From contig JAGLYY010000224.1 in the NCBI GenBank assembly GCA_023131935.1, positions 1 through 34,774 on the forward strand: a stretch of DNA of 34,774 nt, read 5' to 3'. Origin of the DNA: Spirochaetales bacterium. Lineage in GTDB: Bacteria; Spirochaetota; Spirochaetia; JAGLYY01. The position numbers and the translations under genes were made by a program. The notes under the pieces are model-generated. The model had not been told where the DNA came from. It ran no database searches and saw nothing but the letters and a program-made list of their open reading frames with translations. Below, piece after piece: positions 11,089 to 17,735 of the stretch (position 1 is the stretch's first letter; the number at the start of each line of letters is the position of its first letter).

Positions 11089-12000
11089 CTACTGTTTTCC
11101 ATTTTTAAAATCATACTTTTGTTTCGGTATCACAAACTCATACTTATAGGTTTCTCCTCTGTGGGAACAGAGGGCTATAAATTGATTATCTTCGTCGATG
11201 AAGGCGAAATACCCCTCCTGGGGGTGTGTAAAACCTGACAAATGTTTCTCTATTCCAGCACCTGTAAGTACTTGCTTAATCGATTGTTTATCTAATAAAA
11301 TCTTCTGAATCCCCCCTATCCGGTCGATAGCTTTTATCCCTTCGAAAAAGTCACTTTCAGGAGAAAATTCCTCAGGCGTTTTTCCATCCTCGACCAGGTA
11401 CGGTCCTACCGCGGTTCTTCTAAGGGAGGTGAGATACCCGCAGGAACCGCTGCTTCGTCCGAGGTCCCTCGCAAGGCTCCTGATATAGGTTCCTTTTCCG
11501 CAGATTACCTTTATCGTAAGATAAGGTGGTTTCCACCCAAGAATAGAAAGCTCCTTTATCTGAACTTCCCTCCCGGGCATTTCAACAATTTCCCCCGCCC
11601 GAACCCTTTCGTGAGCCCGTTTCCCATTAATATGAATCGCTGAATATGCGGGGGGGCGTTGTTTTATGGTGCCGCGAAATGTGGGGAGAACTTCTTCAAT
11701 GGTGCCAAGGTCCGGAACCGGAGCCGTTTGAATAAGTGCCCCCTCCGGATCCAAAGTATCGGTTTCCTTGCCGAAGCAGATTATTCCCTCATAGGTTTTA
11801 TCCATCCCGGTGATGTGAGGAACAAGTTTTGTGAATTGTCCGGTGAGAACAACGAGAATGCCGGATGCAAATTTGTCGAGGGTCCCTGTATGACCTACCC
11901 TTTTCTCATTAAGGACACGTTTAACCCTGGAAAGGGCCTGAAATGAGGTGACCCCTTCAGGTTTATCAAGAAGAAGGAGACCTGAAGCTCTTTTTCTCAA
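11089..12000 (-). CDS. truB: tRNA pseudouridine(55) synthase
   Basis: LLLDKPEGVTSFQAL, GHTGTLDKFASGILVVLTG, RPPAYSAIHINGKRAHERVRAGE, CGKGTYIRSLARDLG. Confidence 0.97.
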   Translation of the reverse strand: MRKRASGLLLLDKPEGVTSFQALSRVKRVLNEKRVGHTGTLDKFASGILVVLTGQFTKLVPHITGMDKTYEGIICFGKETDTLDPEGALIQTAPVPDLGTIEEVLPTFRGTIKQRPPAYSAIHINGKRAHERVRAGEIVEMPGREVQIKELSILGWKPPYLTIKVICGKGTYIRSLARDLGRSSGSCGYLTSLRRTAVGPYLVEDGKTPEEFSPESDFFEGIKAIDRIGGIQKILLDKQSIKQVLTGAGIEKHLSGFTHPQEGYFAFIDEDNQFIALCSHRGETYKYEFVIPKQKYDFKNGKQ

Positions 12001-12344
12001 GTATTCAGTTCCTCAATCTTTTTAATCATGTTGAAGCCATCTTCTATTGAATTGTCAAGGATAAATATTAATTTCGGGGTCTGTCTAATCTTCAGTTTTT
12101 TGCCGAGGATGCCCTGAATAAAGCCTGTAGCGTGATTCAAAGCATCAACAGAAGATTGGAGTTTTTTGCGGCCTTCAAATCCGGATATATAGATTTTAGC
12201 GTATGCTATATCCTTCGAGACATCAACATCTGAAATCGATATCATGGTTGTAACACGGGGATCTTTAATGATCCCTTTCATAATCATCATACTGATTTCT
12301 TCTCTTAACAGGCTTTTTACCCGTTCCAGTCTATGTTCTGCCAT
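11997..12344 (-). CDS. rbfA: ribosome-binding factor A
   Basis: RbfA fold sequence: RLERVKSLLREEISMMI...DPRVTTMISISDVDVSKDIAYAKIYIS...RQTPKLIFILDNSIEDGFNM. Confidence 0.95.
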   Translation of the reverse strand: MAEHRLERVKSLLREEISMMIMKGIIKDPRVTTMISISDVDVSKDIAYAKIYISGFEGRKKLQSSVDALNHATGFIQGILGKKLKIRQTPKLIFILDNSIEDGFNMIKKIEELNT

Positions 12345-12352
12345 CGGTCCTT

Positions 12353-14884
12353 CTATTTATTTTCCGGCTTACCGAGTTTCTTCGCGATCTCTTTAATCTC
12401 AAAGACTTCAAGCTGATCTCCAACCTGAATGTCCTGGAAGGTCTCAATACCGATACCACATTCGTATCCGGCATCAACTTCCCTGGCATCTTCTTTAAAC
12501 CGCTTGAGACTGGTGATTTTTCCGGTATGCTGTTCAATACCTTCACGGAATACTCTGACATTGGATCCCCGTTTTACCTTACCGGTAAGAACATAGGTAC
12601 CTGCAATAACACCAATCTTTGGTACTTTGAAGGTATCCCGTACCTCTATGGTAGCAACGACCTCCTCCTTGAGTTCAGGAGCAAGCAGCCCTTCCATCGC
12701 TGATCGGATATCATCAACAGCATCATAGATGATGTTATACTTCCGGATTTCAACTTTTTCCCGGTCGGCTAGTATCTGAGCCTTTGAGGTCGGCCGAACG
12801 TGGAAGCCAATGATAATTGCGTTTGAAGCGACCGCCAGGTTAACATCGTTCTCAATAACTGCACCGGCAGATGTATGAATTGCAGTGAGCCGAATCTCCT
12901 TGGTGCTGAGCTTTTCAAGAGCGCTTTTGAGGGCTTCAACAGAACCGTGTACATCACCCTTGATGATAACCTTGAGTTCCTTAATCTCGCCGTCCTGGAT
13001 TGAATCGTAGAGATTATCCAGAGTAATTTTCTTGACGTTTGCGGCTTCACCCTGTTTTTCGAGCTCCTGACGTTTTGCACCGATTTGTCTCGCGAACTTT
13101 TCGGATTCTGTTACCTGAAAAGGTGCTCCGGCATCAGGAATTCCTGTAAAACCAAGGATTTCAATAGGTATTGCCGGCGGTGCTTCGGTAATCTTATTTC
13201 CCTTGTCATCAAATATAGCTCGAACCTTGCCAGGATAGACTCCAGCAACAAAAGCATCACCAATGCGCAGGGTACCCCTTTCTATTATGACTGTGGACAC
13301 AATACCCCGGCCATGATCAACCTTTGATTCAATAATCTTTCCCTCAGCCCGACAGCTGTAATTTGCTTTTAACTCAAGAACCTCTGCCTGTAAGAGGATG
13401 CTGTCAAGAAGTTCAGCAACTCCCTGTCCCTTCAAAGCGGATAGTTCAGCGAAAATCGTTGAACCGCCCCAATCTTCCGGAATGAGATTGTATTCCGAAA
13501 GTTGCTGTTTTACCCTATCGGGATTCGCTTCGGGGAGATCAATTTTATTAACAGCTACTATGATAGGAACTCCTGCCTCTTTAGCATGGTTCAGCGCTTC
13601 TACTGTTTGGGGCATAACACCATCGTTTGCGGCGACAACCAGCACAACGATGTCAGTAACCTGTGCTCCACGAGCCCGCATGAGAGTAAATGCTTCATGG
13701 CCGGGAGTATCAAGGAAAATGATATCTCCCTGAGGGAGAGCCACTTTGTACGCTCCAATATGTTGGGTGATTCCACCGAATTCACCAGCGACTACATCGG
13801 ACTTTCGGATGGTATCCAGGAGTTTTGTTTTACCATGATCAACGTGACCCATCACCGTTACAATGGGAGGGCGAGTCTTCAGATCCTCATCCTGGTCTTT
13901 TTCGCTCTCTATGATGGTTTCATCGTAGAGTGAGACAATTTTAACCTTCGCGCCATATTCTTCGGCAACAACGGCGGCTGTTTCCGCGTCAATCTGTTGA
14001 TTGATGGTGACCATCATTCCAAGTCCCATCAGTTTCCCGATGATTTCCGAAGCTTTCAGATTCATTTTTTTTGCGAGATCACTGACCGTAATGACCTCCA
14101 TCATATCGATTTCCTTGGGCACAGGATTCGATCTCTGGACGGTCTTCTTCTTTATCTGAAAATCTTTCTCTTTAAGATTCTGTTTCTTACTCTTCTGATA
14201 GGCAGGTTTCTTTTTTGCTTTATAGAATTTTTTCCCTGCCGGTTTTTTATCTCCTACTGGCGGAGCAGTTTGCTCGGGTTTAAATCCGGGACGCTGCTGA
14301 GGTCTGAAATTCCGCTGAGGTCCTCTATTTCCTCCAGGTCCGCCTGTTTGAGGTCTACCGCCCTGGGATGGTCTTCCACCCTGGGGAGGTCTACCACCCT
14401 GTGTTGGACGTCGATTTGGTCCTTCACCGCCTGCTGGGGGTCTTCGGTTATAACCTCCCCTGTTCCCACCGGTTCTGGGTCGGGGTTTCTCATTAGCAAA
14501 AATACCCTTGTTATAGGGTTCGGAGGGTGTTCGGGCAGGATGTGCTTTACGGGGATGCCGGTGACCTTCTGTCCCCTCGGCAACCATCTTTTTAGCATAT
14601 GTCTTTGCTGCTTGAGGTTTGCGGCCGGCTATTCCGGTCCTAACGGGCTTTTCCTTTCCAGGTCCGGATGAAGATGGAGCCTTTACGCGGGGTTCTTCTT
14701 CAACGGATGGTTTCTCATCTTTCTTAGCGACAACCCTGGGCACAGTTTTCTTGGTCCGCTTTTTAACAACAACTACCTTCTTCCGTTCCAGCTTCGTTTC
14801 TTCCACGGCAGCTGCCGATTCTGGTTTCCTGTGTTTTATAAGAGTCGCTTTTGGTTTCTGTTTCTTTTCCTGCTCTTCAGCCAT
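12353..14884 (-). CDS. infB: translation initiation factor IF-2 with low-complexity RG/GGRP-rich N-terminal extension
   Basis: G-domain [62 protein letters not shown]-terminus [15 protein letters not shown]...[22 protein letters not shown]. Confidence 0.98.
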
Positions 14885-14947: not shown

Positions 14948-16393
14948 CTATTCCTCTTCCTCTATCTCGAAGCTCAGTCCAACCCCACAGTTTGGACATT
15001 GGGTCATGTCAACAGAAATTGCATTCCCACATTCAGGACACTCGAAGTATTCCTCTTCAGGCTCCTCTTCTGCTTCTTCTGTATCTTCCGATTCTTCTTC
15101 GATAATGTCAACATTCTCGAGAATGATCGATTTAATCTTCTTTATATCCTCTTCGCTCAAGTTTTCAAACTTGGCAAGTTCCTCATCTGTAAGAGACACG
15201 AGAGTTTCAATAAGTTCTATACCATCCTCGTAAAGGATATTGATAATATGTTCAGGAAGCCCTGGAAGTTCGGAAATTCGGATAATTTCCTCTTCTTCCT
15301 CGTAATCTCGAAAGAGTGCCTCAACAGCCCTTTTAGATTCAATGGAGATATCCATTTCCTCGAACTGGGCTTCAGTCTTTACATCAATATTCCAGTCTGT
15401 CAATCTATTAGCAAGACGGACGTTCAATCCCTGTTTTCCGATAGCGAGTGATAACTGGCTTTCATCAACAATAGCAATGGCTTGCCGTTTTGCTTCGTCT
15501 ACAATAACGACCTGTTTGACCTCGGCGGGGGAAAGGGCGTTTTTAACGAACTCCCGGGGATCATTCTCGTATTTAAGAATATCGATTTTCTCCCCCTCAA
15601 GCTCCCTTACAATTGCCTGGATCCGGACACCCTTCATACCGACGCACGCACCGACGGGATCTACATCATCCCTATTAGAGTACACCGCGAGCTTTGTTCG
15701 ATATCCCGGTTCACGCACTATCTTAAATATTTCCACAATCTGATCATATACTTCAGGAACTTCAAGATCGAAAATGCGTTTCACAAAATCGGTATGTGTC
15801 CTCGAAAGGACGATCTGCAGTCCCGAAGGTGTTTTATTTACTTCGTAAATAAGAGCTTTAATGCGGTCATTCGGCCGGTAAATCTCTCTTGGAGATTGAT
15901 ACCGTTTCGGAAGAATACCTTCGATTTTACCAAGATCGACAAAAATGTTCCCATTTCTCTCTCTCTGATAGTAACCGATGATCATTTCACCAACTTTTTC
16001 CTGAAATTCGGAATAGAGGGTGTCTTTCTGTATCTCCCGGAGGGTCTGCTTTGCCTTCTGCTTGGCAGTCTGAACAGCAACCCGGTCGAATTCTTTTATG
16101 TTGATTTCAATCAACAGTTCATCACCGATTTCACATTCATCGTTGAGTTCAAGGGCCTCTTCCAGACTGATTTCAGCAACCGGATCATAAATATCTTCAA
16201 CAATGCTTTTTCTTGCAAAGAGAGCCACATCGTTACCATCTTCACTGAAACGGACTACAGCGTTATCAGCTGTTCCGAATTTCCGTTTATATGCCGCATA
16301 GAGAAAATCTTCTATCGTTTTAACGACAAGTTCCTCTGATATTCCGCGATCTTGCACCAGTGCTTTTATTGCATCAGCTAATTCAGAAGACAT
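14948..16393 (-). CDS. nusA: transcription termination/antitermination factor NusA with C-terminal acidic linker and zinc ribbon
   Basis: N-terminal NusA domain, S1 (GEMIIGYYQRERNGNIFVDLG), KH domains (DPVGACVGMKGVRIQAIVREL; QLSLAIGKQGLNVRLANRLT), HhH/AR-like segment, then CPEC-X10-CPNC at the C-terminus. Confidence 0.97.
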   Translation of the reverse strand: MSSELADAIKALVQDRGISEELVVKTIEDFLYAAYKRKFGTADNAVVRFSEDGNDVALFARKSIVEDIYDPVAEISLEEALELNDECEIGDELLIEINIKEFDRVAVQTAKQKAKQTLREIQKDTLYSEFQEKVGEMIIGYYQRERNGNIFVDLGKIEGILPKRYQSPREIYRPNDRIKALIYEVNKTPSGLQIVLSRTHTDFVKRIFDLEVPEVYDQIVEIFKIVREPGYRTKLAVYSNRDDVDPVGACVGMKGVRIQAIVRELEGEKIDILKYENDPREFVKNALSPAEVKQVVIVDEAKRQAIAIVDESQLSLAIGKQGLNVRLANRLTDWNIDVKTEAQFEEMDISIESKRAVEALFRDYEEEEEIIRISELPGLPEHIINILYEDGIELIETLVSLTDEELAKFENLSEEDIKKIKSIILENVDIIEEESEDTEEAEEEPEEEYFECPECGNAISVDMTQCPNCGVGLSFEIEEEE

Positions 16394-16858
16394 CTACTTT
16401 CTGACCTCCTGTGAATATGCTAATTTAGCTTTCTGGATATTTGAACCTTCAATTCTCATTGTATTTCCATCCGCCTCAAGAGTAATAGTAGTACCACCAT
16501 GAAGTATTTTACCCATAATCCATTCCTGGGAATCTGCCAAAAACACTTTAACCAAACGGCCTGTGAAGATGTCAAATTCATCCAGATATTTCAGTTTCCT
16601 GCTCAATCCCGGAGATGATATCTCAAGATTGATCTCCCGTGTATCCTCAACAAGCTCAACACGTGGGCGCAGAGTCTTCGAGACCTCCACGCAGTCACTA
16701 ATAGTAACACCAGTTTCCTGGTGAATGACGATATGAACCTCAAGGATTCCCCGCCTTTGCTGCCGGGCGATCTCGACAATTTCAAAACCAAGCCCTTTGG
16801 TTACAGGCTGTAGTTCCGCGTAAAGATTGTGAGTTTCTTTCGGACGGCTATCCATATC
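16394..16858 (-). CDS. rimP: ribosome maturation factor RimP
   Basis: LQPVTKGLGFEIVEIARQQRRGILEVHIVIHQETGVTISDCVEVSKTLRP...EISSPGLSRKL. ATG at 16858 has AGGAG upstream; the track start (GTG 16876) is possible but less likely. Confidence 0.93.
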   Translation of the reverse strand, partial: DMDSRPKETHNLYAELQPVTKGLGFEIVEIARQQRRGILEVHIVIHQETGVTISDCVEVSKTLRPRVELVEDTREINLEISSPGLSRKLKYLDEFDIFTGRLVKVFLADSQEWIMGKILHGGTTITLEADGNTMRIEGSNIQKAKLAYSQEVRK

Positions 16859-16887
16859 TCTCCTATAAACTCCCACCGCTAAAGCCT

Positions 16888-16913
16888 AAAAAAGGAGTCG
16901 AACCTTCGACTCC
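16888..16913 (-). terminator. intrinsic terminator/attenuator in the rimP-nusA-infB leader
   Basis: Minus strand GGAGTCGAA-GG-TTCGACTCC followed directly by TTTTTT (16893-16888), about 30 nt before the rimP ATG. Confidence 0.75.
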
Positions 16914-16944
16914 CCACAAGCTAGCTCATTCAGGATGACAGACA

Positions 16945-16973
16945 ATAATAGCAGGACATCAATTCTTAGTCAA
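16945..16973 (-). promoter_or_regulatory. candidate sigma70-type promoter for the rimP-nusA-infB operon
   Basis: Minus strand TTGACT (16973-16968), exactly 17 nt, TATTAT (16950-16945); lies upstream of the terminator at 16888-16913. Confidence 0.6.
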
Positions 16974-17021: not shown

Positions 17022-17735
17022 TTAGTCCATTGCCAGAGTAATACAGAAAACCTTCATTACCCCCTGCTCTTTGAGTACTCCGGCACATTCATGCAAAGTT
17101 GAACCGGTAGTAAATACATCATCCACGAGGACAACCTGCTCAGGCAGGTCATTCTTCACTGACAGGCTGGAAAATCGCTTTTTCAGGTGAATCTTTCCTT
17201 TGAGGTTGCTTTTTCTTGCCTCCCGATCCAATCCTTTCTGCATGCCGCCGTTATCCCGGTGTAAAAGGGGAAGTACCTTTCGGTCTGACAGTTCAAGCAG
17301 GGTCATTACCTGGTCCCAGCCCCTTTTTTTATATGATCTCTTTGAGCAGGGTACAGGGATGAGGGGAAGAGCGGGATATTCTCTGTTAAGGGTGGATGAA
17401 AAAAATGGATAAAAAAAGTGAACAAGTCTGGTATACCCCTCCTCCTTATACCTATGTATCATTTCCCGGATTATTCCCGAATAATGAAAGACCGAAAAAT
17501 GACTGTCGAAGGCATAGGAGTGGTTTCTGCAACGTGTACAGATTACTTTTTCACTCATAAGGTCCCTCCCGCAAATGGTGCAGCGGGTCCCTGAAACAAA
17601 AGGCAAGGTATAAGTGCAGCGGTCACAAACACCTCTCCGAATCTGCTCGACTCCGTCGAGGGGAGCCCCGCAGTAAAGACAACCTTCAGGGAAAAGATAT
17701 TCAGAGAGGTATTCCAGAAACCGGGGATGCTTCAC
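17022..17735 (-). CDS. comF: ComF/ComFC family phosphoribosyltransferase-like protein
   Basis: N-terminal Cys pairs (CLYCG, CDRC, CTICG, CTRC) and PRPP-binding motif VVLVDDVFTTGST. GTG start. Confidence 0.9.
   Translation of the reverse strand: MKHPRFLEYLSEYLFPEGCLYCGAPLDGVEQIRRGVCDRCTYTLPFVSGTRCTICGRDLMSEKVICTRCRNHSYAFDSHFSVFHYSGIIREMIHRYKEEGYTRLVHFFYPFFSSTLNREYPALPLIPVPCSKRSYKKRGWDQVMTLLELSDRKVLPLLHRDNGGMQKGLDREARKSNLKGKIHLKKRFSSLSVKNDLPEQVVLVDDVFTTGSTLHECAGVLKEQGVMKVFCITLAMD

Follow-up and report, generated by a model that had tools for sequence, protein, structure and literature searches.

The window, a stretch of 34,774 nt, carries the genes rimP-nusA-infB-rbfA-truB in a row on its minus strand. 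Between rimP and a comF-like gene upstream lie a promoter, a short leader and a hairpin followed by a T-run. The features are listed below in the direction of transcription.

17022-17735, minus strand: comF-like phosphoribosyltransferase gene, upstream of the promoter
16968..16973, minus strand: -35 element TTGACT; TTGAC(N) with a 17-nt spacer recurs class-wide
16945..16953, minus strand: extended -10 element TGC-TATTAT, hexamer at 16950-16945; the TG is found in 44/66 class loci
16938, minus strand: predicted transcription start, about 7 nt past the -10, placed from the promoter position
16916..16938, minus strand: predicted unstructured leader of about 23 nt; its length is kept in the class, its sequence is not
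16894..16913, minus strand: predicted terminator hairpin GGAGTCGA-AGGT-TCGACTCC; outer G-U pairs can extend it to 16915
16888..16893, minus strand: U-tract TTTTTT, whose six T columns do not vary among 39 relatives; end of the predicted terminated RNA of about 51 nt
16858..16864, minus strand: Shine-Dalgarno-like AGGAGAG
16394..16855, minus strand: rimP (ribosome maturation factor), ATG at 16855, first gene of the putatively controlled operon; Pfam RimP_N and DUF150_C
14948..16393, minus strand: nusA, candidate feedback regulator, abutting rimP; Pfam NusA_N and KH_5, with a weak Zn_ribbon_3 just under the cut-off
12353..14884, minus strand: infB (translation initiation factor IF2); Pfam IF-2
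11997..12344, minus strand: rbfA; Pfam RBFA
11089..12000, minus strand: truB; Pfam TruB_N

Promoter and hairpin at the locus

The promoter TTGACT-17-TATTAT is a 10/12 match and ties for the best among 17 promoter-like sites in a scan of 10 kb. Only the rimP-leader one of the two tied-best sites has the extended -10 TG. Because the 17 sites are near the mean of 13.8 in shuffled sequences, the match alone is little proof, and it is the promoter's conservation that does prove it. The initial annotation had called this promoter on the minus strand, and the call is confirmed, with the extended -10 and the class-wide conservation now added. The spacing claimed there also agrees with ours, from the start at 16938 over the 23-nt leader and the hairpin to the U-tract end at 16888 and the rimP ATG at 16855.

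The hairpin region reads GGGGAGTCGAAGGTTCGACTCC at 16915-16894 and is followed by T6. It folds into 8 Watson-Crick pairs, GGAGTCGA/TCGACTCC, with AGGT as the tetraloop and outer G-U pairing as an extension, at -13.7 kcal/mol. Thus the earlier call of a hairpin plus TTTTTT stands, but its 9-bp stem with a GG loop is sterically impossible. When the minus-strand leader RNA is folded as had been proposed, the whole 91 nt gives z = -2.7. A simple terminator scan did not list the rimP-leader hairpin, likely because the G-U extension of the stem consumes part of the T-run. From the U-tract end at 16888 to the rimP start it is 32 nt.

The leader itself offers little else. No Rfam family matches anywhere in the window, so no curated riboswitch, T-box or ribosomal-protein leader is matched, and ARAGORN calls no tRNA in it. 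Pairing of the leader with the 5' arm of the hairpin scores 9.35, versus 8.89 for shuffled leaders and 22.6 for the hairpin itself. The earlier remark that no obvious competing antiterminator helix exists is borne out, as the alternative pairing is hardly above that of shuffled leaders. Moreover, the leader sequence between the promoter and the hairpin is unconserved in the class. The shuffled-like pairing and the unconserved leader together speak against an antiterminator or a ligand-binding RNA.

Two further candidates were rejected. A leader peptide is ruled out, since only about 20 nt lie ahead of the hairpin and leave no room for it. A tRNA relic was considered because GAAGGTTCGACTCCTTT has the look of a T-arm and metY occupies this place in E. 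coli; it is rejected because no tRNA is called and the motif belongs to a hairpin that the relatives conserve while its loop varies.

Conservation in the class and beyond

The rimP upstream regions, 69 in total, were collected from 59 class genomes in which nusA was matched and from additional members of the class that a search for rimP turned up. To count as a hairpin, a stem needed at least 5 pairs and a T-tract behind it, no more than 170 nt from rimP. By this count 66/69 regions carry hairpin and T-tract, one of the 66 calls (L097) being a poorly placed stem. In 92% of the 66 loci the best upstream promoter reaches a score of 9.5 or more, compared with 13.6% of shuffled windows. The -10 end is a median of 28 nt from the stem, with the 10th-90th percentile range of 25-31.5 nt. 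Hence the claim of a short leader ending in a terminator before the nusA operon is strongly supported, its promoter, spacing and hairpin being conserved class-wide.

The U-tract ends a median of 16 nt before the rimP start, and at most 35 nt before it in 54/66 loci. In most relatives no second promoter fits into so short an interval, so all transcription of the operon must pass the terminator. The initial annotation had seen no evident room for a second promoter, and this holds in most class loci. The architecture of promoter, hairpin and T-tract exceeds chance, with a stem pattern unique in its own genome and an occurrence at 66 of the 69 class loci.

The hairpin is absent within 170 nt of rimP at three class loci, L077, L081 and L090. 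At L081, a hairpin lies about 180 nt upstream of rimP. At L090, from a Treponema pallidum-like reduced genome of 1.14 Mb (G108), the attenuator appears to have been lost. Four Borreliaceae-like loci (L085, L086, L087 and L102) keep the promoter, the 24-25-nt spacing and the hairpin; their stem letters are wholly different (ATAAGGTTCTTT/AAAGAGCCTTAT) and their T-run is interrupted. With the letters replaced and the layout kept, the architecture outlasts the stem sequence there.

The commonest stem in the class is (G)GAGTCG/CGACTC(C), with exact GAGTCG in 35/66 loci, and the others include GAGCCG, GAAGTCG, GAGTCC and GGGTCG. The covariation check that had been suggested turned out positive: in 39 aligned rimP upstream regions, five of nine pairs vary on both sides. 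Two-sided stem changes amount to 38 cells, against 12.5 in shuffles. In the same alignment 94.7% of the stem cells pair, and this falls to 36-68% when the partner is slid by 1-3 columns. The A-U, G-C and C-G pairs at columns 11, 12 and 14 are invariant. A lineage-specific compensatory change is seen at three Treponema-like loci of family f24 (L092, L093 and L095), where the stem is GGACTCGxG/CxCGGGTCT: the G of GAGTCG is C at one position and its partner is changed too.

The pattern GAGTCGN{2,12}CGACTC occurs once in its own 3.37-Mb genome, at the rimP leader, while in several relatives it is found elsewhere too, at rates near or above those of a reversed-pattern control. A covariance model of the hairpin matched 45 genomes, and in 41 of these its best match is the rimP leader; the other four are G005, G025, G031 and G037. 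Among 33 held-out genomes that were not in the model, rimP is directly downstream of the top match in 28. Of the five other top matches, one lies on too short a stretch for a judgement, and another comes after an apparent tRNA 3' end. In some genomes the second-best matches (L254, L255, L256, L257, L262 and others) lie in gaps between other genes, for example GAGCCGCTTGATAGCGGCTC beside a proS-like gene in family f11, and they look like ordinary terminators.

In other classes of the phylum (n = 34), the stems are GAGTGG/CCACTC in 11, GAGTCG in 7 and GAGTCT in 5. In the Bacillota, 73/80 named loci carry GAGTG[A/G]..ACTC or GCTC before TT, mostly as GAGTGGG/CCCACTC stems and in the Lactobacillales as GAGTGAGC. 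The median distance from their extended -10 promoter down to the hairpin is 35 nt. The U-tract run has a median of 7 in the class versus 3 in the 73 Bacillota leaders, and the stem energy is -9.5 kcal/mol in the class versus -12.7 in the Bacillota. In ten Bacillota genomes the class hairpin model gives only weak best matches with E of 0.006-0.9, so it does not clearly recognise their rimP leaders. The two phyla thus have in common the promoter spacing and the GAGU/ACUC base beside the U-tract, and the upper stem is lineage-specific.

Relation to known rimP leaders

The rimP-leader attenuator was described by Naville & Gautheret in 2010 in Firmicutes and Gammaproteobacteria, in most species surveyed (PMC2965389). 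It has an unusual conserved GGGc/gCCC stem and lacks an antiterminator, and NusA was proposed as its regulator (PMC2965389). The main text of that paper does not name spirochaetes, Borrelia, Treponema or Leptospira. The element here is likewise a lone intrinsic terminator, as predicted, in the 5' UTR of rimP-nusA-infB without an antiterminator or a larger conserved structure, and its stem motif is largely specific to that place in the genome. The published terminators are 4-130 nt from the gene; here the distance is 32 nt and the class median 16 nt. However, the spirochaete stem is GGAGTCGA/TCGACTCC, in the class GAGUCG/CGACUC, not GGGc/gCCC, and the U-tract is long. Because the published stem motif was tried and does not fit, we file the element as a variant of the rimP-leader and not as a member. 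For the spirochaetes we document a predicted leader of about 20 nt at a fixed spacing from an extended -10 promoter.

In B. subtilis, according to a review, NusA is autoregulated via NusA-stimulated termination in its own leader (PMC12288461). The B. subtilis and other Bacillota leaders share with ours the operon order and the extended -10, there about 35 nt away, before a GAGU..ACUC hairpin. They differ in the upper stem, GGG or GAGC versus CG here, in a stronger stem and in a weak interrupted U-tract, mostly TTTC, whereas T6 here is not a short U-tract. By RNA-seq, the S. agalactiae gbs0413-gbs0418 operon yields both short and long transcripts from a shared start, termination occurring at +31, and NusA feedback was proposed (PMC4448216). 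The short terminated RNA has its like here in the one of about 51 nt that we predict from sequence alone.

The E. coli metY-rimP-nusA-infB operon has two terminators (t1 and t2) before rimP and is under NusA control (PMC6511841). The terminator directly before rimP there is GGGCTTTAGGCCC-T7. That leader differs from ours by the metY tRNA, which has no counterpart here, by several promoters and two terminators and by the lack of the GAGU core. The main text of a paper on the 5' and 3' RNA ends of Borrelia burgdorferi mentions neither rimP nor infB (PMC10319736).

Proposed attenuation by NusA and the other readings

The element is real and conserved, and it is most likely an attenuator of rimP-nusA-infB. 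Our main reading, to which we give a probability of roughly 0.6, is a promoter-proximal attenuator as the spirochaete form of the rimP-leader, most likely serving negative feedback by NusA. RNA polymerase would start near 16938, make a leader of about 23 nt that is predicted to be unstructured and meet an intrinsic terminator with the end of its U-tract near +51. We infer that it does terminate there with partial readthrough, so that a fraction of the polymerases would stop and yield an RNA of about 50 nt while the rest would read into rimP-nusA-infB-rbfA-truB. Since neither an alternative helix nor a leader peptide is found, polymerase-bound proteins probably set the stopping fraction.

The likeliest of these proteins would be NusA, which is expected to join RNA polymerase as sigma leaves and to stimulate hairpin-dependent termination; plentiful NusA would then lower its own operon. 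We infer NusA to be the effector by analogy, as its feedback is the mechanism best supported by the precedents of B. subtilis and E. coli. The initial annotation had also named NusA as a possible agent, and the suggestion accords with what is published on those two species. Terminators with long U-tracts often need NusA less. The long U-tract of the spirochaetes, unlike the weak interrupted one of the Bacillota, therefore means that the NusA dependence may not carry over to them.

A more specific proposal, which we regard as unlikely, is that the GAGUCG stem is read sequence-specifically in termination by NusA, through its KH/S1 domains or a C-terminal zinc ribbon, or by RNA polymerase. The fixed leader of about 20 nt would then put the decision where NusA replaces sigma, a timing presumed from the spacing, and free NusA would be measured directly. 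If so, the G-C to C-G compensatory change above the shared GAGU base in spirochaetes would mark a co-evolution of the reader and the stem.

Feedback by NusA has to be weighed against simpler and more elaborate uses of the same terminator. It could be a fixed dampener, whose constant leak sets a low expression of the operon without regulation, and the canonical U-tract could act without factors, no sensor is visible in the sequence and the leader is unconserved. Yet a plain leak needs less than a stem, a spacing and a promoter that numerous families conserve and that a second phylum echoes, and feedback on the operon is reported in E. coli (PMC6511841) and B. subtilis (PMC12288461), so we hold this unlikely. 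Quite improbable is a factor-loaded antitermination, in which a factor at the promoter or on the GAGUCG stem would let the polymerase pass as Q and AlpA do. The very tight promoter-terminator spacing, the stem letters conserved beyond the needs of a terminator and the absence of an RNA antiterminator agree with it, and AlpA is an antitermination precedent at promoter-proximal terminators (PMC9371919). Against it, neither a candidate factor nor a separate DNA loading site was found, and the leader from promoter to hairpin is unconserved.

Two other readings deny the hairpin a role in attenuation. As a hairpin at the 5' end of the mRNA that acts in stability, processing or translational control, it would suit its 5' UTR position near the rimP ribosome-binding site and the long-range pairing around it in the fold, but the six-T tract invariant in the 39 relatives is needed by a terminator and not by a stability hairpin, which makes this very improbable. 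The least probable is that the hairpin mainly terminates the comF-like gene, being downstream of it on the same strand and in the rimP leader by chance. A promoter stands between that gene and the hairpin at a fixed spacing, the hairpin is kept in 24/66 class loci without a recognised comF-like gene upstream, and a separate inverted repeat (17020-17002) sits at the comF-like stop codon. This perfect repeat, CCGGAA-AGGTACG-TTCCGG on the minus strand, has a poor T-tract and may mark where the comF-like transcript ends or where a protein binds.

How cells steady the level of NusA, a global termination factor, has mostly been studied in B. subtilis and E. coli. The minimal element of promoter, about 20 nt, hairpin and U-tract, found class-wide and echoed in the Bacillota, offers a small test system. 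With it, the question raised in 2010 becomes more pointed, as a terminator stem needs only pairing and yet the letters are kept. Swaps of the lineage-specific stems over the common GAGU base could reveal the reader.

The NusA C-terminus (14948-15100 of the window, minus strand) has a zinc-ribbon-like segment at residues about 449-472, with a sub-cut-off Zn_ribbon_3 score of 26.8 bits. The segment occurs throughout the class as well as in families f36, f38 and f49, all of which have the GAGTC stem, and in the families with GAGTGG hairpins, which lack the ribbon, the NusA matches end before it. A strict link between the GAGTC stem and the ribbon gives no clean rule and was rejected: f48, f58 and f64 have GAGTC stems but their NusA match coverage stops before the ribbon, and the association is confounded by ancestry.

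Elsewhere in the window, a strong canonical terminator, CAGCACCATAT-AAACA-ATATGGTGCTG plus T7, lies at 20945-20919 on the minus strand between an OmpH/Skp-like gene and mutS, with an opposite-strand STAS-domain gene nearby.
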